Below, piece by piece: positions 35,883 through 52,300 of a stretch of 64,000 bases of DNA (positions within the stretch are counted from its first letter, which is position 1; each line of letters opens with the position of its first letter). The notes below the pieces were generated by a model that did not search any database, was not told where the DNA came from, and was given only the letters and a program-made list of their open reading frames with translations. The stretch is from assembly GCA_905250025.1 (NCBI GenBank), contig CAJNOJ010000036.1, forward strand, positions 62,001 to 126,000, read 5' to 3'. Made by a program: the position numbers and the translations under genes. The stretch is from Adineta ricciae. Lineage: Eukaryota; Rotifera; Eurotatoria; Adinetida; Adinetidae.

Positions 35883-36016
35883 GGCTACAACTGCAGTTTA
35901 GTCACACCGTTGTGTTCAACAATAACAGAACAGGAAAAAAATCTATTCGCTTATCGTTCTGACCTATGACTAGGAGGTAGATATATATTACAAATAGATG
36001 TCATAGAAGAACAAGA
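35883..36016. repeat. Left inverted repeat of Merlin-like element
   Basis: About 134 bp matching the reverse complement of 36838-36972. Differences are one extra base near the tip, a shorter poly-A run (seven against nine) and two substitutions near the inner end. Confidence 0.9.
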
Positions 36017-36218
36017 TCAATTAATTAATTAAAAGATAATCCGCTCTATTCATAACCGTGTTCTGAAATTTGAAAAAGTTAACTCTTTTGATGTAAAGAT
36101 AAAAATAGACAAATAATAATCTAATCTTTTGGGAATAAAGCTAATTATTGAATAAATGACTGAGATAAATATAAAAAGCTAACATGTTCCTTGCATTTTT
36201 CACCATACAACTTGAGAA

Positions 36219-36805
36219 TGAATACTCCTATCAACACTCATATAACTCTCGACGATCTTGAATCATTAAATAGTAGAAAACTTCACATGTTGACATCATC
36301 AAATGAAAGCACTATTCAATTATTACCAAGCAGACTTGGTGACAACGATTCGTGTCCTGCAGGTTGCAATCAATGGTACACCGGTAAATTTTCAAGAGAA
36401 ATAGATGGTACGTGCACTAATACTTATCAAGATCCTTTACATACGACCTATTTTAGGATACGTGTTCCGTTGCAAAAAATGTAAAGCAACGAAGTCGATC
36501 CGGCAAGGAAGTTTTTTCTCCGACTCACACTTATCATTATCAACAATCATCGAAATAATACAAACTTCTACGGACATCGAACAGTTAATCACTCAGTTCA
36601 CTTTGTGGACCCAGCGACACACGTACATACGCAGTTGATCGAAAATACGTGGATGCGTATCAAAATGAAACAAAAAAGACAATGTGGACTTGCGAGAACT
36701 CTGTTACCTACATATCTCGAGGAATTTGTTTGGAGGCAGGACTTCGGCGATAAGCCATTTCAAAATATAGTAACGCAAATAACAGAAAATTATCCTGTAC
36801 TTTGA
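36219..36805 (+). pseudogene. Merlin transposase remnant lacking the DDE core
   Basis: Exon 1 starts MNTPINTHITLDDLESLN and holds the first half of a zinc ribbon (CPAGCNQWY). A 49-bp intron (36408-36456) follows. Exon 2 has RCKKCKATKSIRQGSFFSDS, the second half of the ribbon and the conserved ISXO2/Merlin motif, then LSTIIEIIQT. Near 36600 the sequence jumps to the C-terminal motif (FVDPATHVHTQLIENTW, YLEEFVWRQDF), which lies in another frame. The D-D-E catalytic region between them is missing, so this copy cannot encode a working transposase. Confidence 0.85.
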
Positions 36806-36837
36806 TTGTTACATATGTAATTTCTTCAATAAATCTG

Positions 36838-36972
36838 TTTTGTTCTTCTATGAAATCTATTTGTAATATATATCTACCTCCTAGTCATAGGTCAGAACGA
36901 TAAGCGAATAGATTTTTTTTTCCTGTTCTGTTATTGTTGAACACAACGGTGTGACTAAACTGCAGTTGTACC
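36838..36972. repeat. Right inverted repeat of Merlin-like element
   Basis: About 135 bp, the reverse-complement partner of 35883-36016. It ends in CTGCAGTTGTACC at 36972. Confidence 0.9.
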
Positions 36973-37134
36973 AAAAAAACACTGACTTTTTAACATACAC
37001 ACACAGTGGGACTAACAACGCATCAGTAGAAGATGTATAAAAAAAAGAGGAGAGAAGAAGAGAAAAATCAACAATAGCAAATGTCGTCAAATCACCATCA
37101 CTGCACACAAAATACAGACATTCTGTTATTATTT

Positions 37135-38043
37135 CTATTTACAATGTTCAGACAGCCATTTGAGACCTTCCGGTAAACCAGTTCCTTGCAATGCGGAGCA
37201 TGACATAATTGCATACGGACGTGTGAGTTTATCTAGATGTAATAGTTGGCGTATTTCAGCAGGCTGCATACAATCTGGCATATCTTGTTTGTTACAAAAT
37301 ATTAAAAGAACAGTGTTTCGCATTTCACGATCATTGATGATTTTGTCTAATTCATGACTTGCTTCTTCGATACGTTCACGGTCACATGAGTCAACAACGA
37401 AGATAAGTCCTTGAGATCCGGTATAGTAATGCCGCCATAATGGTCGAATTTTGTCCTAAAAACTCATCAATCATTTTTTTTGATTAAATTAGAGACTAGC
37501 TTTTCTTTATAGAATTATCAAAATTAATCTTTTGCATTCTAGAGCAATTACAAACAGCTGGACGCGTGTCTTTTATCTTGTTATTTGACTCGAGCTTTGA
37601 AATGACATTTCCATACTTATTTTTTTTACTTCACTGCACAATTAATTGAATAAGGTCACTATCGTATACCTGAAGTACGGTACGTTATGAGTTTGGGACG
37701 TCGGAGGTTTTGAATGCAGGTACAAAGTACGAAATGCATGACGTAATCAAAACTTTGAAAAGGAATTTCTTCCTATTCCGTGACTTACTTGTCCACCAAC
37801 ATCCCAAACATTGAATTTCACATGACCTAGTAGAACAGTTTCGACATTAAATCCAACTGTAGGTATAGTTGTGATTGCTTCTTTATGACGAAGACGATAG
37901 AGTATCGATGTTTTTCCAGCATTATCTAAACGAAATAACGATCCGATCGATGTTCGACGAATTTCATCAAAGATCTTACCAAGACCGAGCATTAATATAC
38001 GATAATGCTTCTTACCAAAAATTGTACCAAACATATTCCCCAT
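37135..38043 (-). CDS. ARF/ARL-family small GTPase
   Basis: Three exons, 37980-38043, 37789-37925 and 37135-37455, give 173 aa. The start [12 protein letters not shown] has Gly2 for N-myristoylation and an amphipathic helix. Nucleotide-binding motifs are intact: GLDNAGKT (P-loop, split by intron 1), PTVGFNVE (switch 1), [17 protein letters not shown] (switch 2), NKQD and [16 protein letters not shown] is typical of ARL proteins, whereas the [12 protein letters not shown] part is ARF-like, so the subgroup is unclear. Role: membrane-associated GTPase in vesicle traffic. Intron 2 is 333 bp, several times the usual size here; I saw no feature in it. The Merlin-like element ends about 160 bp beyond its stop. 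Confidence 0.92.
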
Positions 38044-38480
38044 CGTTCTCACTTCTCTTTTGTAATAAATAATTGACTTATTTATATAATCGATGCCACT
38101 TTTGATAAAAGTACGAAATTGAATTGTTTTGCCGTTATCTAGAGAACATTGTATTGTATTATCGATCAATATATGTCTACGATTACATGCCACTATCGAA
38201 CAAGAGTACAATAATCACACAGGGAGGTCGCGATAAGATACATTCACTCGACGCTACATACACTAAATCGCCATTACATCTAAATGCATTCGACCTTCTC
38301 TATGTAGAGAAAAAGTGAAAGATGGCGTTGGTTTTCAACTTAATATGATACATATATGAACATGATTAGAAAATTGAGAGTCGAAACTACTTTCTCGGAA
38401 TATATTGAAATCTTTTCTGTTTCAGTTTTCTGACATTTAGAGTATTATCATAATACCATATATGTAGGTGAGTGAGATCA
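38044..38480. other. Intergenic
   Basis: A 5' flank of the ARF gene on the left and, towards the right, the presumed outer end of the MULE-like locus. No coding frame. Confidence 0.4.
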
Positions 38481-38527
38481 AAGTTGAAATATTGTGATAA
38501 GAAGAAAAGTCATTGTATTAATATAAA
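38481..38527. repeat. Weak candidate terminal repeat, left end of MULE-USP locus
   Basis: Three short blocks, AAGTTGAAA, GTCATTGTA and TTAATATAAA, occur here in order. Their reverse complements occur in mirrored order at 46350-46384. A 17-bp insertion separates the first two blocks here. In AT-rich DNA this could be chance. Confidence 0.25.
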
Positions 38528-38598
38528 TGGTGTTGATAACGCTGTACATCAATTATGTAAAGAATCAAGTAAAGGCAAAGAAAAAGCACTCTTTATAA

Positions 38599-39364
38599 TC
38601 AATGAAAATTTACAATTATGAATAAAAAACGAAGAACGAAAAATGAACACAGTATCTTTGCAAAATGAAAACATCGAATCATTTTCAATGAAAAGTCAAT
38701 GAACGAATAGTTCCATTGACCAGTTTCTGAATCAACATAAGTACCTAATTGTTTATTTTGAATGTGACAATAAAATCTCACATGTGTGTTTTTGTCTATT
38801 AATTGAATTGTCACCGGCTGATTGAGTACGAATTTGTCAGGTGTTACTGTTGTTGACTAAAAAGAACAAAGAAATCTAATCATATTCATGACTTAAATCG
38901 TTTACTTGATGTACCGGTGAAACTGGTCGTGGTGGAGAACTTCTATCATCGTTGTTGGAACACAATTCCTAAATGAAGCATAAGGAAAAACTCAGTGCAA
39001 CTGATCGTGCGTATATAGCTGCATTTACCTGTTTTAAAAAGACGATTACTATTCGTGCCGTATGAAATATATCATTGGTTTCGGATTTTGAAATCGAAGC
39101 AGCTTTTTCATATGGAGTGGATGTGAAAATCGAATTATCTTTCAATTTGACAACGGACAAAGCATTGTATTCATCAATTAATATCGCAGATATTGACGTA
39201 TACATATATCGGTTCTGTAAATAATCAGTTAACTCCACACGAAAGTTTGTTAGAGTATTCAGTGTTGCATTTGATAGACGACACATTAAAATCGGTGGGC
39301 ATTTTAGATGTATTTGTTTGAAAACAGGCAGAATCAAGTTTTTTGATTTCTCGTTGCAATTCGA
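38599..39364 (-). pseudogene. C-terminal exons of the USP-MULE protein beyond an in-frame TGA
   Basis: Directly after the TGA at 39365-39367 the same frame stays open for about 120 codons and looks strongly protein-like (LKCPPILMCRLSNATLN, ELTDYLQNRYMYTS, ILIDEYNALSVVKL, NDIFHTARIVIVFLKQ). It continues through two phase-0 introns to SPPRPVSPVHQ, then FVLNQPVTIQLIDKN, and a stop at 38599. The pattern resembles the second half of a USP fold. Either the TGA is a disabling mutation, it is avoided by unseen splicing, or it is the true end and these exons are decayed. Confidence 0.5.
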
Positions 39365-42300
39365 TCACTGAAGACTTTCATCATATGAAGTTAATAGTGG
39401 TGTACCATAAATTTCACTGCTGTCAGAATCTTGTTCGTAAATGCAGATGCCTTCAGATGTCGATGATAACAGGTTAGATGAGGAATGATATTTGTTACAA
39501 GCATAATACGTCACACATGATGAAAGTAAAAGATGACGAAGTTCGGTGAATTGTTCATCATGCTCGATAATTTCGATAGCGTCACGTAAGGTTTTAAACG
39601 GTTTGATGGTACGATCGTTCACATTCACCGTGATTGAACAACATTGGGCAACGGCATATAAAAAGTTAGAAGTACATGTACGGATGCGTTCAAGTATAAC
39701 GATTCGACTAGCAGCAAGTAACTTGAGAAACATTGGCCCATTGCCTATAAGCTTTTGTTGAGGGCTCACACACCATCGTTCTTTGATTTTCGTCAAGGAT
39801 ATCAGTTTGTTCTCTGTACTTGAATCAACAGTTGCAAAACCGACTACGTCGAAAACCGTCGCTGATGTACAACCGATGCTAGATTTGTCCAAAAATCGAT
39901 TAAAACAAATTGTTTCCGGTACTTTGCAGGATGTTTCCTTTGATCCATTGCCATGATCAATTTTGACAACTATGACAGATGGACCTAAGAATACGTGCAG
40001 CTACTTATCAATACTTTAATAGGCAGTGCTAGGGCAAAATGAGCTTATAAGAAGTCAGGCAATTCAAATCCTAAGAACTGCTACCTCAAAACAAATCTTT
40101 CCTCAAGAACTCTTCCCACAACAGAACACCAACACTCACTAGCCGAAAGTATCAGATATTCTGACAAAAACTGTACAAACAGAGGAGCCCTTTTGAACTG
40201 AACTATCAGATTTGTAAAACTTACAATCAATGATTTTCATGTGTCGTGAGATCGTTGAGCCACATTTATCACATTTACGATCTGAAGTACCACCGACAAA
40301 AAAATTTGATAAATGATTATGAAGATCGATTTGATTGTCCATTGTGTGAATCAAAATATAACGAATGATGTTTTTCTTCTCGATTGCGAATTTGCAAGAT
40401 GTACAAGTGTAAATCATTCTAACTCGAATTGATGGAATGAGCAATGAAACAAGAATTTGATCAACAATATAAACTAATTGTCGGTCAATATCATCTGGCA
40501 TATTATAAGGTAAGTCGAATTGAGTACGTAATAGCTGTTGTTGTTCTGGACTTGTTTTCTTCGGCGGCTTAATCAGTCTTAGACAACGCATCCAATTTTT
40601 AACAAAATCAATGATTTCGATGAGATGTGGTGACACTATTGACGCTGGATCAGGAAGCGTTTCACGAAATACTTTGATTGATAGTAGAAGTGCAATACCT
40701 ACGTTAAACCAACTGGCGACAGCAAGAGTAGGTATGATGAGGCCGACATTAACATTCGCCGGACGCACTATCAAGGCATTTTTCAAACTATTCGTGACAG
40801 ATTCATTTGGAGCTTTACAATAATGGCCATGACCACGATGACTAGATTGCCTCCAATTTTCTTGAACATCACGCAGTTGCAATCGAGTACGGTTTTGAGA
40901 ATTCGTAGTTTGAGACATACTTGCCATGAAAGACACAGAAAAATTTTCTACTAATCTCAACATATCTTTGATAAGAATCTGAAGAACAACATCTGCTCTG
41001 ATACGAGTTTCAACGCCTGAAAAAGAGTACAAATAAACTTGTGTGTACTTTTCACAGGTTTCATTATATAAAATATCCTACCGAGCTGAGTTCTCTTCAC
41101 AATCCCCATACGTCGTTCGGAAATAGCATTTGTTCGTTGGTCATGTGTAGAAACAAGTAAAGCATCAAATGCATGAACAGATTCTCGACCATGTCGTGAT
41201 AAATTTCCTACAGATATATTTTAACTATCGATTTTATCTAATTTAAGCTGTGAAATATCATACCTAGCAACAAGTTGGACCAAATCGGAACCGTTGGCAT
41301 GCATCGTTGATTAATAAACAATAGCCATATGCGAGATCCCTTTGATACCTTATCGGTAGACGACGGCTTACCAATCATTTTGATACTTTCTTCACAGCAT
41401 TCATAATAAATGACACTTAGATCACGTTTAAATGGACTGTCGATTTCATTTAATTCTTTTTCGACGTTAATAATCTACAAAGCAATAGCAGATAAATTGA
41501 CCAAATTTCAACTTGTGTGAAAATATATATGAATAAAAAAGTATGCTACTCTAACAAATATCAAAACAAATACCTGTGACGTGCTCGATTGTTTAATTTT
41601 TCGACGTTTTCTAATGTGCTCGTCGGATTGAAGTTCATCTCCTTCATCGTCGTCATTGAAGAAATCCTCTTCGTCAAATTCATACGGATCATCGGTAGCG
41701 GTAACAACTTCTTTCGATTGAGTAATCGCTTTCGACGCATTGGGTTCATTAGTTATTTCGGAAATACGCGAAAGAAGCATCGTATAATGTTTGGCAAAAT
41801 AGGGGGTAGTATTGGTTGTATAATTAAGAAAAACTCGACAAATTAAACGCCAATTATTTTTCAATTGTTCGTAGGTATTGCTGTTAACAAGAAGCGCGAT
41901 TGACCACATGGCAAATTCACGTATCATGTCCGGTAAATACTTGTTAATTCGTTTACGCATGTCCTGTTCAATGCAAAACGAATAAACATAGAAATATTTA
42001 CATATTCAAATGAAATGTAGCCTTACCAACATGAAATGTGCCAAACACGCATGAATGTTTGTTTTGAAGAAGTCACTCTGAATACCTTTTTTCGTAACGA
42101 TACGATAAGCTCGCGAAAGAAACTGTTGATAATTCTCATCGTTAAATACACGTAATGCAGCTTGTAAAAAGACTTGTGCACGGTCTGACAAGATTATTGC
42201 AGGTCTTGGAAATGAATCTTTTTTATGTGGAAATATCTAGCAAAATGTACAAGAAATATGATATTCATGTAGTCATAAACAGTTTATAAACAAAGTGTAC

Positions 42301-45300
42301 TTACCTGTTTATGATTATCTTTGAAGGACAATAGCCATTGAGTAACTGTGAATAATGACTGAGATTCCGACAACATGAATGTCAAAGGTATTAATGAGTC
42401 TTCGTCAACAATATTGGAATGAGTAATTGCCAACTCATAATATAAAATTTCTTTGGATCCGGTGTTCTTCACGACTCCTCCAGTTGCATCCCATGAAAGA
42501 ACAGAATCTTTGTGAGCAACAATTGCGTCGTACAAACGAATGGATGCTTCAGTAAATACAGTTGTACAAAACGGTCTCAGTTAAACAACTTGAAGAGCAC
42601 CGCGAAGTGTACCATCGGGATTGACTTTTAGAATAAACTCATCGTGTAACTGTAAAATACTTGATGTAACATTTGGAGAGAGTAGAGATTCGGCAACTAC
42701 TTCGGCTTTGATCTTCTTGAAAATTAACTTCGATTTGCCAGTACTGTCATAATTAAATCCCATCTTTTCAAGCGTTGTTCGTTTTTCACTATACTGTCCA
42801 TGAACCTGATAAACCAAAGCACCACTTCTGAATTTTTCGGCCAGTTCTTTTCGTTTTAAGCCACGAATAGGACGAGCTACTCGTCTCTTTACGTCATGAC
42901 AAACCGTATTGTGAGATGTACTAACATGAAGATCACCATTATTCAAAACAAATACGCGGCATGAAAATTTGCAATCTGTATCATTACATTTAAGAACACA
43001 TTTGATAATATAGTGCGTTGGATTTGAAAGATCGTTTCCAAATCTACGTGTGCAGACACATAAACCACAATACGGATTATAGCGTTTTAAATATGGTAAA
43101 ATTATATCCAGGTATTCAATATTAACTTTTCTTGCTAGTGGTTGATCGGATCCTTCTGTTGACGGAACACGTTTCGTTCTTTTATTCGAAGGTGAGTTTG
43201 ATCCATTATTTGATTGCTTTTTTTGAGATAATGAAATCGATGTCACAGGTAGTAAACCCATTTTTCTCATTTTTGCATCATGTTCTTGATTAAGTATCTG
43301 TTGTCGATATTGAAGTAAATTCACCAGCGCTGTCGAACTCAACTTAGCTTGAAATGTGCGAGGAAGCGTACATTCAAATACTACCTGTAATGGTACGCCT
43401 GCAGCTACGGAAGCTACTATACGACTGGTGTCTGTAAGTCAAAATAGAATTCGCTAGTCAATACTAGATTCGATCACAGTCACGCTTACCTGAATTCATC
43501 GATTCCCATTCATCAGTAAACGACATATGGGTTCTTTTGCTTGAAGCAGAAGTTTGGACTGAAGATGATGGCACATCAGCTATCGGTCCTGAAAGGCACC
43601 AAATTAGAAAAGATAAATCAAATGAAATAAAGATATCTATAATGATTCGTACGTTTATTTGAAACATGATTGTCTTTCGATGTTTGCTTTTTTCGTACTT
43701 TTTTTTGGACATTGATCACCAATTGTGATACTGCTTTCAGTGGAACCGGCAGGTATATCGAGATTTGAAGTAATATTTAATTGTTGATGAGGACTCTTGT
43801 CAATGGTACCCAACGTAATTCCAATGCTCGGTTTGTCAGTACATAAAGCCAAAGTACCTAAACAAAATATCAGATCAATGCGCATGACTACATCAAAAGT
43901 TTGGAATGCCTGTTCTCTCGTTGAAATTATACTCACAATCTTTCAATTGTTTACTTGTAGGAGACATCATTGAACAAACATTAGTACGTCGTGCACTTCC
44001 TAAAATCTATAAGACAAAATATATAAAATAGTTGCTTATTGTCATAACAATCGTGCTCGTACTGGAGTATTTGAAATGTTTGGAGTAGCGACGAGAGAAT
44101 TATCGATGGAAGAACATTGTAGTGGTATTGGTGTTGGTACATGCTTCGTATTTGTGGGCGCACGAGGTGTCTTGCCGTAAAAAAATATCGAAGCATATTT
44201 GTTATATAATACTTGTTCTAATGATACTTGTTGACATTGAGAATCATTAACAAAGAACCAAATGTCATTATATGTTCGAAGATATGCATGGTAATGCCCG
44301 TTATCATTGTTTTTACTAATATGATTAATAACTGCATATAATCGATATAAGTACTCATTAGATTCACCATGGTTTTGGTTTTCTTTGTTCGAATCGAGTA
44401 GCTTATCAGTTACATATGGATGAACGGTTAGCAATTCATCAAAAGCCACCTGTTGCGTGTGTTTTCGTATTGAAGAGCCAAATCCAACGCTTCTTTTCAA
44501 ATTAATAATCAATGCTGGTGGTAAATCTTGAATGGTAAAGCGTTTAGTAGCGTGGACAAATGTATTACAAACACCATAATGATATGAGTTATCACCTGTC
44601 AAAATTTCTGGCTCAAAAAAATGTTGAAGTGCATCAGGTAAACTATTCATGTTATTAATTTCGACCGAGAGAGTATACGTATATTCTTCTTTTATGCTGG
44701 CATTCAAACATGACGAACATTTGACAGTATTTAGAAGCGTAATACGAAATATTCGATCGATAAAATTGAACACTGATTTTATTGGAGATAATATTGACAT
44801 GTGCAAAGCATAACAAGCAACACAATGATCCAAAAAACTCGTGATAAAAAGATTGGCATCTTCCTGTTCTTGAGTAATAAATGCAGGTGAGATTTCTTTG
44901 AGATTTTTGCTAATGCAATCAGCCGACGCAGCAACAGATATATCTTGGTCAGTAATATTTTGTTTTGATGATGAAGACACGCTGTAAATCACACTTGACA
45001 TTTGACAGATAGAGCAGAAACTACCTTGATTTGATAATTGACCTAAAAATTATATTCAATTATAAATTTCCGTATTAATAATACGGCGTATGATTTACGT
45101 ACATGTAGTTAAGTGATGTTTTTGCTTGAATATCCACTCGATTAGTGGAGGTGTACTAGCAAAACACTGTAAAGATGCATTAATAAAACACGACGTTCCA
45201 TCTGAATTATTCAAACCAACTACTTTTCTGCGTAGTTCATTCCAATCCATCAATGGTCCTGCAAAGTAGTCAAATTAATTTGAATAGAAAACTCAAGTTT

Positions 45301-46232
45301 TCTTGTAATACTTATGTATGTGATACTACTTGTCTTGTCATTATCGATGGAAATTGACTCCTGAGTAGTTGTGACATGAGTTTTGGTTGAACTGTCTAGA
45401 ATAGTACAATAGTAAAGAAATAATTCGTATTTGTCAAGCTAAATAAAAGTATATCAATTAGACTTACTTCCACAAGCAACAGATCTTTTCGGAGTTGATG
45501 TACACACATTGTCGAATAGAATTTCTCCCGAACATGCATTCACTAAAACAAAGAAACATTAGGCAACAAAATGTCTCACAGATTATATCATTTTCTTGCT
45601 CTCTCAGAAGAAAGTACTGTATGGATAATTGAAAACATACGATTGAATGACTTTTCGTTGAAGGTTGTGTTATGTATATTTGATGAAAATTGTTTCTCTG
45701 CTTCACCATGATCATGATCAGCAGCATGCATATCATTCGATGGTTCAACGGATGGTATGTTGAGAAGTTCTCGATAAAAAGCCATTTCGCTTAAATAGCT
45801 AATACCTTTAGGAGATAATCTCTCTCTCCATATATCCAGAACAGTAATATTTTTCAAATAACTCTCCCATGTCACATTGTATCCAAGAAGACGGCCGATG
45901 AACGTTAAATCCATTCCATCAGGCACCATTTTTACATAGCCATCTACATCAATATCATCAACATCTTTCAATAGATTTTCCACACAGACCAGAATAAGTT
46001 CGTCTACGAGGAGTTCTGCAGCATCCATTTCTATTTGTGTCCGCCCCGTTATACACATAACACCGCATGAATATCGTAAAATGGAAGTTGCAGCTTCCAA
46101 AACACGACGTTCCTGTGCAGTTGGTGGTGGTTTTGGTGAACGAAATTTGAATAATTCATTCAACTCGTTCAGACTGTCATTGCTATCGTCTGATGGAGAT
46201 GAATTATCAGATCCAGTGGCAGACATGCTCAT
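39365..46232 (-). CDS. USP deubiquitinase - MULE-type transposase - USP-like fusion protein
   Basis: A long multi-exon minus-strand gene whose exons keep one frame across many 50-60-bp introns. Order: an acidic/Ser N-terminus (MSMSATGSDNSSPSDDSND; 45600-46232); a USP domain (about 44050-45260) with Cys box GTSCFINASLQC, zinc-site cysteines (CSSCLNA, YGVCNTF) and His box NGHYHAYLR; a linker; a zinc-binding, FLYWCH-like segment (CVLKCNDTDCKFSC, RRVARPIRGLKRKELAEKF; 42600-43340). A MULE-like DDE core follows, with SWDATGGVV (about 42480), ILSDRAQVF (about 42190), CLAHF (about 42040) and NAISERRMGIVKR (about 41120). A second USP-like region (39370-40900) has ASWFNVGIALLL where CWFN is expected, CTSC and CDKC zinc pairs, and CPSVIVVKI. 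A real transposon or a domesticated gene are both possible. Splice joins at 43680 (gtacg) and 42600 (gtgctc) are my inference. Confidence 0.65.
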
Positions 46233-46834
46233 TCACATCTGGAATATAACGAAAACAACTATAAATACTTGAAGTGAATTAGCTTGAATGCACGTTCAAA
46301 AAAGAGAGAACAGTACAGATAAAATCAGAAATTTTTACTTCTGTTTGATTTTATATTAAATTACAATGACGATATTTTCAACTTAGTAGAAATTTTTTTA
46401 TTAAAACACGTCTTAATCCATTCAAATTATGAAATCAATAGTTTAGAGAGAACGGACATGTGAGGGACCAACTATTACTGTTTCTGGCTCCGATCTCAGA
46501 AGAGCTATATTTTATGATCTGACTCCTGGTTATCGGGATCGAGACCGAGGCTAGTCATACACATGCATACTTTAGACACTGTATGCAAGGCAATATTCAA
46601 AATAGTTCAATTTGGTCTCTCCTTCAGTAGTCTGTACGATAAAATGTGACTGTTGATCATGTATACATATGTATATACGTTTTGTTTTATTTCTGACTTT
46701 CGATCGCATGTCACATGGAAGAAATATTGAATAGACATCAAGCATTTGATAAACATATTTGAATCTTACGATGATTGTGATTGAAATGTGTTTTTGAATC
46801 ATGAACACAAGCAAACACGTGTAATCGAGAATGA
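46233..46834. other. Upstream region of the USP-MULE gene
   Basis: AT-rich, no gene seen. It includes the mirrored candidate terminal repeat at 46350-46384. A minus-strand open frame at 46572-46967 runs into the neighbouring inverted-repeat element and is not credible as a gene. Confidence 0.4.
46350..46384. repeat. Weak candidate terminal repeat, right end of MULE-USP locus
   Basis: TTTATATTAA, TACAATGAC and TTTCAACTT mirror the three blocks at 38481-38527 in reverse order. If real, the element would be about 7.9 kb. Confidence is low because the blocks are short and AT-rich. Confidence 0.25.
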
Positions 46835-46836
46835 TA

Positions 46837-47034
46837 CCGGGTGTACCAATAGTTTTGCGACATTTTTTATTTCGTTGATTTCCTGAGTTGGGAAAATGAT
46901 AAAATCTGGATTTTTCTTTTAAATGATAGAGCAAGGAGAGTTGTACAAAAAACTCATAAAGGAACATTTATTCTCTGATTCGAACAATTTTCTCGTGGAA
47001 GTTTTTAAGTGCCTATGCGGAACTCTGATGTCCC
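46837..47034. repeat. Left TIR of mariner-like element
   Basis: 198 bp, inverted partner of 47581-47778. Both contain GATAGAGCAAGGAGAGTTG and GTGGAAGTTTTTAAGTGCC on opposite strands. Confidence 0.85.
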
Positions 47035-47580
47035 CGCACGATAAAAATGCTAGTACATTTTTTAAAGTTTTGTATGTATTTTAATATTGAAAAATGATAT
47101 GTACCTAATTCGTCTTTTACGAGTTGCGCCATGCAAAGCTTTCTCAGATCTATAGCAAGAAATTGCAAATAACAGCTTTCACTGGTCTATCCATTCTCAA
47201 AACCAGAAAGTCTACAATTCGTGGTCCTGTTTTTTGCGATATTTTACTTTTATTTTCAATCTATCATAGTTTCTAAAAACGATATGATATACATTTTATT
47301 TGTATAGGATGCGCCATGTAAAGAACTACAAAATAAGTCAAAACAAACTGATCGAAGTTTATACATCTGTGTTTTTTTAAACACAAGATGGACAATTGAC
47401 CTATATAGTCTCATTTATTATGAGTTTGTTAGTTTTCTATTTCTATCGACTCAAACGAATAATAAAAGATAATTTTTTTTTAAGGATACGCCATCACAAG
47501 CTCTACACTAACTGTGTGTACAAACTCAGAAAAAAGAACCAAAAGTGGCTGCAATATATTTATATTCATCCGATTATGAT

Positions 47581-47778
47581 GGGACATCGGAGTTTCGCAT
47601 AGGCACTTAAAAACTTCCACGAAAAAATTGTTCAAATCAGAGAATAAAGGTTCTCTTATGAGTTTTTTGTACAACTCTCCTTGCTCTATCATTTAAAAGA
47701 AAAATCCGAATTTTATCATTTTCTCAACTCAGGATATCAGCCAAATAACATATGTCGCAAAGCTATTGGTACACCCGG
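47581..47778. repeat. Right TIR of mariner-like element
   Basis: 198 bp, inverted partner of 46837-47034, ending TTGGTACACCCGG before TA. Confidence 0.85.
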
Positions 47779-47780
47779 TA

Positions 47781-49352
47781 TTTCGTTTTCTACAGCCGCT
47801 TCTGAAAGATAGAATATGTGTTTCTTCATATGTAACGCATGCTATTTTATATCAATATCTTGTTGCTCTTGAAGTTTTTCTTTCGCATGCGCTGCATTGA
47901 TCTCTCTCTTTCTCTCTCGTAGACATGTGCAAAATTAGGACCGTGAAAAAAAACTTTACGAGAGCCGGGATCGGAATCAAAAACAATTGGATCCGCAGAT
48001 TTCTGGTTTGAAGAGAGGGAAAAACTTCATAATTTGTTATCGAGTTGCCATTTTTGCATGAAATTAAAAGTCTGTTGATGAAATTAGTCATAGCTTCTCT
48101 AAGCATCCTAAAAATTGATACACCATTAGTAATATTCAATATCATTTAGTATTACACAGACAAATGCTAGGCTTTTCAGCAAATTTGATTCACGAGGATC
48201 AATCGTCGGAAACCCATCATATTTGTGGTCAATAATACCTTCCGTATCTTTTTATCACAATGTATGTTGAGATGGAGAGATTTAGTACCGCATAGAGTGC
48301 TCATTACACCACGGTGTTTGTAAATATATAACGATCAAACTGCTCATTCATTTCATTGTATCATGCACAGTTTTCATAGAAAATACGTTTTACAAAGTTT
48401 TGAAAAAAACAGTTGAAATTCACTCATCAATTATACTGAGCGTAACTGTTGTCTCGCGTTGATGTACAAAAGCCTTTAAATTAAAAAAGCGATTTCTTAT
48501 GAGTTTTTTTATAATTTCATATTATCTGTAATTTATTGGACTCAGTAGAAAGAGAGCCAAGAACATTTATTGTTTCGCATAACTCTATCTATTACTTTCA
48601 TCAACACATTAGTTGTCAAAGTTACCAATATCTTACTTTGTCATTAAAAAGGTGGAGCAGTAAGAAAGCAATGCATATGAATATGATCTTTAACAGTGAA
48701 TCAATGAGGTTGATATGTTTCATCCACTTCCTCATCAAAGAAGAAGATTTCAAATCAAACCAGAGTTCAAATGAAGTTATGTCCGTCGTATCTAACAGCA
48801 AAAGTTGCATAAGATAAAAGTTGAATGTCAAACCATTTGCTTCGTCAAGTACCAGCAAAAAATTCTCAAATCATGTACAAAATTTTCATTAATAAATCAA
48901 TAAATACATCATGTGAACCATCGTTCAAAAAAACAGTTTGATTAGTGACGATTTATTCGATTAATAATCTGACGAAATGACAGAGATAGAAGTTTAATGC
49001 AAGCCAAAGCGCGACTTGTTCATGTTCTATGCAAAACGAGGATATATAGTCAAATAACGGTAGGTAAAGCGTGAAATGCATTTTGATTGACTCATAAACG
49101 CAAGAATAAGATACATACTGTTTTGTATATAGCGTGTGTATGTAACTTATCTCGACCACACAGGGACTGATCGACTGCAATCAATTTATGGGATTCATAG
49201 CCAATTAGAATAATACAGAGGTCACTGTTAAAGGTGGTTGATATGACAACAGACTATATAATGAAGATTAACACATGTGAAATTTCATTTCCATTCTTGA
49301 AAGGTCTTATCGATGTCTTCTGCTGCTGCAGTAAGTAAATCTATTCGTTTTA
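47781..49352. other. Intergenic between mariner-like element and DNAI7
   Basis: About 1.6 kb, AT-rich. Small open frames on both strands overlap one another (48536-48858) and show no motif. I see nothing supportable. Confidence 0.45.
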
Positions 49353-49367: not shown

Positions 49368-52300
49368 ATGTCATCGTCATCCATCTATGAAATCATCTCA
49401 AAATGGAAATCATTGGATTCTCCGAGTAGAAATGCAGATGATAAACTCGTCGTAAATGAGAATGCTCGATCGAAGAAATCGAAACAAAAGAAAAATATAG
49501 ACAGTAAATCAGTAACTAGAATAAGATGATAAAATCGAACGAAGGTGTACATGACCGATCATTAACATCTGGCGGATCTCAAAAGCCAATCAGTAAAAAC
49601 ACGAAAACGAAATCGCGTAAAAAATATAGCACAAAAGGTCGAAAACAAAAGAAAAAATCGAGTGTATGCGATCGTAAATTGCACAGTTTTGCTCATCATT
49701 TTGTTTCACGAAAAAAAAAAAAGGTTAACACTTATGCATTGATTTATCTAATTTATTTAGAAATCGGCATCAACGAACAACAAAACTGCGAAGGCGAAGA
49801 GGAAGAGAGAAGAAGAAGAACGAAAGCGACGCGAAGAAGGTATGTACTTTTATCTGAATGACTTACTATTATATCGATTCCACCGAACAAAAGATATAGA
49901 CAGTTTTATTAAAGAAAAAAAATATCATTAACTTTTCTTTGTTCGAAATATTCTCGTCGCTAACCATTCTGATGATTTCTACTGCGACAAAAGCTATAAC
50001 TATTAGAATAAAACACTCGGAAAACGAGATTTTTTCTAGTTCTATGACCGGAAAAATGATCTGATTTATTTAATATAATTAAATCCGTCTTCTCTGCTCT
50101 ACGAGACTACTAATAGTTACCAATTATTGCGAATAGTTCGTGATAGGTGTCTCGTGATAGCACAACTGCTTATTAATTGACAAGGCATTTGAGGGGTAGA
50201 ATGCTCGTTTCTACGTATATAAAATGATAGACTTGTACCATCTTCCAAGTGACCTTAACACGCCATCACTCGTCCGTTTCTAGCCTTCGTTTTAACTATA
50301 ACAAAGCAGACATTTGTCTGAGAAGTAGAGAAGTAATCATCCGTGGAGAGACACTTTTATCTTAATCAAGATGCTAAACTTCTGCAAAAACGAGAAAAAT
50401 TCGATTTGATCTTTCATATATGTCGGTTATCTGCATTTGTAAAGTCAGTTACATAGAGAAAAAGAACGAATGGAAGGAAAGAAGAAAAAAAGAAATAAGA
50501 ATAAACTGACAGCGGTGGGATTCGAACCCACGCCTTTTACGACTGGTGCCTAAAACCAGCGCCTTAGACCACTCGGCCACACTGCCATTCTTATTTCGTA
50601 ATTTATATTTAATTTATAGAGGAAGCTCGTGTACGTGCTGAACTTGCTGAAAAAGAACGCATCGAAACAGAAAAACGACTTGCTGAAGAAAAAGCTATTT
50701 TAGCGAAAGAAGTACATTTTCGGATTGTTTGTTATATTTTCTCAAAACAAAGTATCGAAAATTATCTAGATTAATGAATTACGCCGTCGAGAATTAGCTG
50801 AATTTTATGAATTTATTCAACCACGAATTGATCAAGCGAATGCAACACGTCACAAACAACGTGACGAGTTCAAAGTAAACTATTCCAAGTATTATTTTTC
50901 TACACGGCTATTGCTTTTTCGTTTCTTAAAGTGGAAACGTGTTATGCAATGCGATGGTACACCTGATCCAACAAGTCTACTTGAAATCAATACATTTATG
51001 TCGTTATGGCACGATGAACATCAACGAACTAATTTGGAGTATACAATGAAACAAACGAATCTTGTTTTATCATTAATCAAAGAATTGAATACTGTGATTA
51101 GTTCGATCCCGAAGGATTCATCTGAACTTGAATCGATTCCAACGTATAAAAAAGTTTGTATACAAAAGAAAACGATTCATTCGAATAGAAAACAATCTCT
51201 TGAATAATTTAGACGATTCATGAACTTGAAGATCTATTGAACTATAAATGGCGTCAAGCAGAACATGATACTATGTTGAAAGCGACTGATTTACAAGATT
51301 TCGAAACTAGTAATTTTCAATATTTTTCTGAAAACGAAAACGCTGCTATTTGTATATGGGCAAATCTCAGTCATAATCCAAGGTTTAATTGAAATATTTG
51401 ATTTGACTCGCTAAAGTTTATCCGTTTCCTTCTTAGAATCAAAGGTTATCTATTCGAACAAAATGGCTTTGGCTTTGATTTACCAAAACCATTAACATTA
51501 GCACATATTGCTATACTTGGCTTTTTTCTTAAATACGATTATTATTCTGAACGTTCGTTATTAGCAAAATGTCGTATCCGATCAATGGAATATACATATG
51601 GTACATGACGTTTTGCAGGAATTTCGATAATTATAGAGGCTATTTTAGATCCAATACCTGAACCTTTGGTGGACGAACCGGCGAAGCAAGTGACGAATGA
51701 CGATGATGATCATGAACCTATTGATCCGACATTACCAGCTGAAATCAGAAAACTTATGGAACAATCAAGACGTCGTGAAAAGGAAGCTGCTGCTGCAGCA
51801 GCGGCAGCAGCAGCTGCAGCGGAAGCACAAGCTTTACAAGAAGCTGCGGCTGCACAAGCCTCTCAGGAAAATGCCGATGAAAGTCAAGATGGAACTGTAT
51901 CACCAACAGCATTGAACAGAAAAAAATCCGTACGAGATGGTAACTTGACAACGATTGAAAATCCACCTGCCTAATTCCATTCGTGTTTATTTTCAGTAAC
52001 TGCCGATCTAATTCTAGAAGAATTAGCTGATGAATCAGTGATTGATCTTCGTTCACATTGGCCTATTTTACCATTGCTTGAAATCAATCTATTCAATATT
52101 CCACCGCAACCGAAAAAAGTTCAAGAGTGGAATATAGTCCAAGGTAAATTTCGAAACAATCTTCGTTTTCATTTACAGAGCATCGTCTTATTTGATTCTC
52201 TGCAGTGGATGACACGGATGTTCTTGTTCCCTATATATACCCATCGGATCCAGGGTTGCCAAAACGATTTTACGAAGAATATGTGTCATTAAGTAAAATG

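Follow-up and report, generated by a model that had tools for sequence, protein, structure and literature searches.

We analysed a 64,000-nucleotide stretch of the Adineta ricciae genome (positions 62001-126000 of contig C36, hereafter the window), with searches of the whole genome (130 Mb, 1,033 contigs). One spliced-leader 23-mer, used as a marker of a bdelloid host, had 0 matches. The minus strand of the window carries a long gene inside a transposon. This is best explained, and quite probably so, as a broken copy of a Mutator-like element (MULE)-like cut-and-paste DNA transposon that combines a USP36-type ubiquitin-specific protease (USP), a C3H zinc-type segment, a DDE transposase core and a degenerate second USP in one gene. 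The features are as follows, with the coordinates of the catalytic residues of USP1 giving the first base of each codon.

38226..49157, minus strand (as its gene runs): entire transposon (10,932 bp), with repeat boundaries from DNA searches with both flanks
38217..38225, no strand: target-site duplication, left copy, ACACAGGGA
49158..49166, no strand: target-site duplication, right copy, ACACAGGGA
38226..38262, plus strand: left inverted end, its 37 bp ~84% alike with the right ends of the C3 and C123 elements
49121..49157, minus strand: right inverted end, with its inner border set by analogy to the left end
38876..46232, minus strand: gene of 2,039 codons in 16 exons, with 15 GT-AG introns and two stops in frame
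45641..46232, minus strand: exon 1, N-terminal domain, no Pfam match, 47% identical in C320
44171..45226, minus strand: USP1, USP36-type, catalytic Cys 45190, His 44296, Asp 44245
43490..44006, minus strand: linking exons 6-8, from USP to transposase; C320 conserves exons 7 and 8, and exon 6 is predicted from the splice model
42877..43129, minus strand: C3H zinc-type segment preceding the DDE core, from residue conservation in relatives
42581..42583, minus strand: in-frame TAA, codon 1022, before the first catalytic D
41116..42490, minus strand: DDE core, D 42490, D 42185, C 42047, H 42038, W 41906, E 41118
39761..40750, minus strand: USP2, degenerate, with the zinc cysteines but no longer the catalytic Cys and His
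39365..39367, minus strand: in-frame TGA, codon 1897

Ends, insertion site and gene of the transposon

The ends of the element were inverted and of the GGTCG type. The left end reads GGTCGCGATAAG... and the right end, inverted, GGTCGAGATAAG..., with 21 of the 25 outermost bases common to both. The pattern GGTYGMGATAAGWTRCATWCA fitted both ends with 0 mismatches (C36:100226 and C36:111157), and with one mismatch allowed it occurred at 17 places on 12 contigs of the genome, compared to 0 for a control pattern. Of the three C3 places, one is apparently duplicated by the assembly, the right end standing there twice around a single N (L059, C3:774030-774480). The elements on C3, C123 and C542 each spanned ~2 kb, which leaves no room for the gene, and are thus probably non-autonomous. 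The target duplication of the window element was a perfect 9 bp, and perfect 9-bp duplications, within the 8-10 bp of the MULE criterion, flanked three (window, C3 and C542) of the four elements read at both ends, a shift of 1-2 bases being allowed in placing the ends. As a chance control, random 9-mer pairs within the window were identical 11 times per 200,000. The left end on C601 was 98% identical to that of the window over 203 bp, indicating that the transposon family moved recently.

A stretch of C385 matched the ARF-like gene on the left of the element (72% and 68%) and two stretches on its right, and the distance from the ARF-like gene to the next match was 0.53 kb in C385 versus 12.5 kb in the window. 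C385 represents a diverged paralogous stretch, and thus the exact empty site is not readable there. The inverted ends, the 9-bp duplication, the other elements with the same ends and the paralogous stretch lacking the element show that the window locus is a transposon and not a domesticated gene. A preliminary description, made from the letters alone, had allowed either a transposon lineage or a domesticated host gene, of which the former stood. It had placed the unit at 39365-46232; the unit proved larger, with the gene at 46232-38876 and the transposon at 38226-49157.

The gene forms one reading frame from an ATG at 46232 to a TAG at 38878-38876, with introns of 53-240 bp. The 15 GT-AG introns agree with the exons described at first as keeping frame, although the two in-frame stops had gone unmentioned. 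The tblastn matches of a relative on C320 tracked the inferred exons as far as exon 12, where a palindrome-like repeat of 550 bp cut them short. Exon 7 (codons 667-705) and exon 8 (codons 708-738) were among those matched. C320 retains the USP, two of the three linking exons and the DDE, with identities to the window of 51% in the zinc segment, 60% in the USP and 81% in the first DDE exon. The dN/dS ratio between the two copies was ~0.25 (1,233 codons), with ~0.22 for USP1 (374 codons), ~0.12 for the DDE (260 codons), 0.30 for the linking exons (39 codons) and 0.36 for the zinc segment (318 codons); these values are rough because dS was 0.9-1.6. The low ratios suggest that the lineage was formerly under selection for both enzymes, the USP and the DDE. 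The stops in the window copy are probably a later loss, and this copy is probably dead for transposition. As read from its codons, a product ending at codon 1022 would retain the USP and lose the DDE core.

Domains of the encoded protein

The USP domain with Cys and His boxes noted in the preliminary description was confirmed by Pfam. PF00443 matched 44177-45220 on the minus strand over all 254 model positions (E 9.2e-34), across one short intron, and the catalytic Cys, His and also Asp were kept in the USP1 of the window, C320 and C419. A profile of the main USP exon from these three loci was compared with solved structures, and the best match was ubiquitin hydrolase 36 (2.6e-43), followed by hydrolase 8 of 4zux (1.3e-30), which we take to be yeast Ubp8 of SAGA. 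The genome's own relatives of USP1, on C306, C42 and C83, were 32-33% identical to it, and the C306 host gene found USP36 at 2.3e-74. In a tree of 14 domains, all from this genome, the transposon USPs of the window, C320 and C419 formed one clade with C306 (0.96). USP1 thus has USP36 as its nearest solved USP and shares a clade with a USP36-like host gene, and we regard it as an intact-looking USP36-type deubiquitinase.

The second USP-like region (USP2) was harder to recognise. The USP2 exon of the window had no Pfam match on its own, and a profile of the window and C419 did not match USPs directly at a significant level (2-5%). The same profile matched the USP set of the sister families at 82% (E 1e-5), compared to at most 2% for shuffled controls (10 shuffles, three profiles). 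A second-USP profile from five loci, searched to E 1, retrieved 52 sequences of solved structures; every one was a deubiquitinase, with a best E of 3.1e-5. In both the window and C419 the zinc cysteines were kept and the catalytic Cys and His were lost. Judged by this homology, the second region is a degenerate USP: the USP-like character proposed at first was retained, but not the catalytic residues. A third USP-like stretch considered behind USP2 in the window and C419 reached at most 0.9% by profile and thus found no support.

The segment before the DDE core, first described as zinc-binding or FLYWCH-like, has one His and three Cys that were invariant in all five relatives, and may be of a zinc-binding type; neither FLYWCH nor any other Pfam family scored above the cut-off there. 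In the DDE core, the motifs that had been described as spaced like those of a MULE recurred among the relatives: DATG, SDRA, HACLxH and the W were common to all five, and SExRM was present in the four that reach that far (C320 ends before it). A DDE core with C-x2-H and W between the second D and the E, which is the MULE criterion, was accordingly seen in 5/5 relatives, with the E in 4/4. In the available text of PMC5225508, MULE transposases are described with an N-terminal zinc finger, the DDE residues, a C-H motif and a W between the second D and the E.

Weighing of the alternatives

Several observations weigh against the reading given above. The window copy contains the two stops, and no USP was seen within the 10 kb examined at the transposase relatives on C21 or C238. 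In the tree, the host gene C306 lay inside the transposon USPs, with the window and C320 apart from C419 (0.90); one or two captures of a USP are both possible on this topology. The element on C123, with both ends read, had no target duplication, and the inverted ends of the window element are short (~37 bp), whereas the terminal inverted repeats (TIRs) of MULEs are typically >100 bp; inverted ends of <60 bp are given for 2 of 14 Aedes families in the part of PMC5225508 available. The distance from the second D to the E is long (283 residues). No PF10551 match was found in the window, C320, C419, C75 or C350, with either single exons or spliced DDE segments, and a genome-wide MULE search gave no match at the window. 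When the profile of the family was compared directly with MULEs of the same genome, nothing significant resulted (at most 3%). The DDE segment had 0 matches in the PDB by sequence up to E 10.

These results leave some room for a DDE core from another or a new superfamily, for which the absence of any PF10551 match above the cut-off on any member and the negative direct profile comparison would speak. We consider this unlikely, given the 9-bp duplications, the C-x2-H and W between the second D and the E, and D residues that can be placed in register with those of MULEs through two bridging relatives on C771 and C657. Both joined the transposase family at 98.6% (E 6.9e-16). When a profile of seven MULE proteins of the genome was searched against 415 reading frames of the fetched loci, they were also the first non-MULE matches (E 8.6e-6 and 8.5e-5; next match 0.085), and both of their D residues were in register with MULEs. 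The bridge has its own weaknesses: two sub-profiles, each from one half of that MULE set and used alone, reached C771/C657 only at 0.035 or weaker, and these relatives have DFSA in place of SDRA and no W. C771 matched PF10551 at E 0.024 and 15.5 bits, under the cut-off of 27.6, and C657 had no match to that model. The best match of the transposase family profile outside the family was a MULE (L016, E 0.0043). Taken together, the sequences favour a MULE-like element, by way of the bridging relatives and the 9-bp duplications and not by direct Pfam membership, and we use the term MULE-like because the PF10551 cut-off was not reached.

The preliminary description had proposed domain searches for UCH, MULE and FLYWCH, of which PF00443 matched, whereas PF10551 and FLYWCH gave no direct match. 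It had also named, as a test against itself, a failure to detect a DDE domain; Pfam was indeed silent there, and the case for a DDE core had to draw on indirect profile evidence.

A second alternative is that the USP and the transposase are two neighbouring genes within one transposon instead of one fused protein. Exon 5, read past its inferred donor, meets a stop after six codons, the transposase frame of the sister elements on C75 and C350 has no USP in front, and exon 6 is predicted from the splice model. Against this, the GT-AG junctions that connect exons 5 through 9 keep phase and make the USP and the transposase one protein in the gene model, and exons 7 and 8 are conserved as coding in C320. 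We therefore regard two genes as improbable; the relation of the USP to transposition would be unchanged if they were real. The sequence supports one gene that joins a USP, a MULE-like DDE transposase and a second USP-like domain, as first proposed.

Least probable is a host gene domesticated from a transposon and kept for its deubiquitinase function: no other copy exceeded 81% identity in any protein search, USP1 and the DDE show purifying selection and the introns are many, but the inverted ends and 9-bp duplication are intact, the paralogous stretch on C385 lacks the element and the frame contains two stops.

Relatives, known systems and proposed roles of the proteases

The MULE-like lineage is multicopy, as had been anticipated, with transposase relatives at at least ten places in the genome (C36, C320, C419, C21, C75, C350, C238, C347, C771 and C657). 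USP sequence adjoined the transposase at six of these ten (C36, C320, C419, C75, C350 and C347). For C771 and C657, where 1.5 kb per locus was examined, neither contig appeared among the USP matches listed. The C238 copy contains stops and the C347 copy is partial. The relative on C21 (L029 3862-6278) has long frames without a DATG or SDRA motif, and is decayed or perhaps domesticated. Three scans of viral contigs gave no relative.

In the sister elements on C75, C350 and C408, the second USP was found by PF00443 (2.8e-12 for C350) and has NCWFNS or NCWYNS and GHY...W...D. C350 further carries a Ulp1 domain on the same strand (PF02902, 7.3e-12; SENP2, 1.5e-4), and Ulp1 was recognised by eye in C75 and C408. 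C408 (L032) has the USP and Ulp1, with a gap at the expected place of the transposase. The inverted arms of C75 are ~0.5 kb and consist of tandem units (84%), and no target duplication was seen there. Such tandem-repeat inverted arms, in C75 (L030) and C350 (L031), resemble those of foldback elements. An upstream frame in C75 and C350 looked Myb-like by eye; it had no Pfam match and no counterpart in the window, and this candidate was dropped.

Proteases of ubiquitin-like proteins are known from other transposons, and the statements on them here follow the available portions of the papers cited. Ulp1 occurs in Mutator elements of plants, hydra and lancelet (PMC2836005, PMC13317346). These Ulp1-MULEs (plant KIU/Vandal; hydra, lancelet) likewise combine a Mutator-type transposase with such a protease, and the sister elements here also have Ulp1. 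They differ from the window element, in which the protease is a USP36-type USP that the gene model puts on the N-terminal side of the transposase and a degenerate USP follows the core; the Ulp1 of KIU elements belongs to the VANC-type gene. Ginger1 transposons carry OTU or Ulp1 (PMC2836005) and similarly have a cut-and-paste transposase and a protease in the same protein, but their transposase is of the integrase type and the protease is C-terminal. Helitrons have two VTDs, or a VTD plus an OTU, per transposon protein (PMC9741609), and thus also more than one deubiquitinase domain, though of other classes and in rolling-circle elements. Muta1, a MULE of Aedes aegypti with 8-9 bp duplications (PMC5225508), resembles the window element in duplication size and in the DDE, C-H and W of MULE transposases, to whose N-terminal zinc finger the zinc-type segment of the window may correspond. 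It differs in being 3,198 bp long, with a transposase of 504 residues and 145-bp TIRs, and no protease domain is mentioned for it in the text available.

The preliminary description knew of no described MULE with a USP. We likewise found no published description of a USP in a MULE-like transposase among titles and abstract openings, which took in few subscription papers and had Repbase outside their scope. The available parts of papers on large or bdelloid transposons (PMC6431247, PMC7943196) and on animal MULEs (PMC5225508, PMC3169594) do not mention a USP in a DNA transposon. A related combination is nevertheless in print: one sentence of PMC2836005 mentions a Trichomonas vaginalis protein (XP_001314237.1) with transposase_11 and Peptidase C19. 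By that description it too joins a DDE transposase to a USP-class (C19) domain, with a transposase of another family.

In the mechanism we propose, the zinc segment would bind the transposon ends and the DDE core would cut and insert, resulting in cut-and-paste transposition. The N-terminal USP may deubiquitinate, in cis, the transposase or host proteins in the transposition complex and so prolong the life of the complex. We give this role close to an even chance; it fits a deubiquitinase in the same polypeptide, and the same role has been proposed for the deubiquitinases of Helitrons (protection of this kind, in the part of PMC9741609 available). Removal of ubiquitin from chromatin, opposing silencing or repair signalling, is a possible but distinctly less likely role. 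USP36 and Ubp8, the nearest solved relatives, act on histone H2B, in keeping with such a role. It also fits the escape of KIU-carrying Vandal MULEs from silencing, where the function of their Ulp1 is called unknown (PMC13317346, as far as its available text goes). Some other role has a small chance, and processing of a long polyprotein is more doubtful still. The degenerate second USP might serve as a ubiquitin-binding or scaffold module, which we suggest only weakly.

A wider and rather speculative reading, which we hold as somewhat less likely than the chromatin role, is that the MULE-like lineage repeatedly recruited deubiquitinating and deSUMOylating proteases (USP36-type USP, second USP, Ulp1) that free chromatin or silencing factors of ubiquitin or SUMO, with one protease offsetting the lost catalysis of another USP. 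The active-looking N-terminal USP of the window, C320 and C419, set against the active-looking second USP and Ulp1 of C75, C350 and C408, offers a natural comparison. The window element adds the USP class, as a USP36-type enzyme, to the proteases known with cut-and-paste transposases, and suggests that some transposons interfere with the host ubiquitin system. This, with the cases of Ulp1 in MULEs, OTU in Gingers and VTD in Helitrons, suggests that transposons time and again need to control ubiquitin or SUMO, and the comparison just named is apt for learning what that need is.

The surroundings contain further repeats and genes. Upstream of the gene, a DNA search located a separate nested element:

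46834..47781, no strand: TIR element with 201-nt arms, nested upstream of the gene

Its arms are 92% complementary, and full-length copies of 96% occur elsewhere, for example two on C111; two partial copies lie on C601 (L065), farther along from the left end described above. Directly left of the transposon, at 37135-38214, lies the ARF-like GTPase gene (recognised by eye), with its likely start ~180 bp from the insertion point. A repeat at ~35886-36973 has inverted ends of ~130 bp and partial copies of 91-95% on C980, C227 and C147; a short reading frame inside it had no Pfam match. On the right, a 93-bp stretch at 50500-50592 shares 99% identity with C385, much more than the sequence around it does, and is possibly a tRNA gene.

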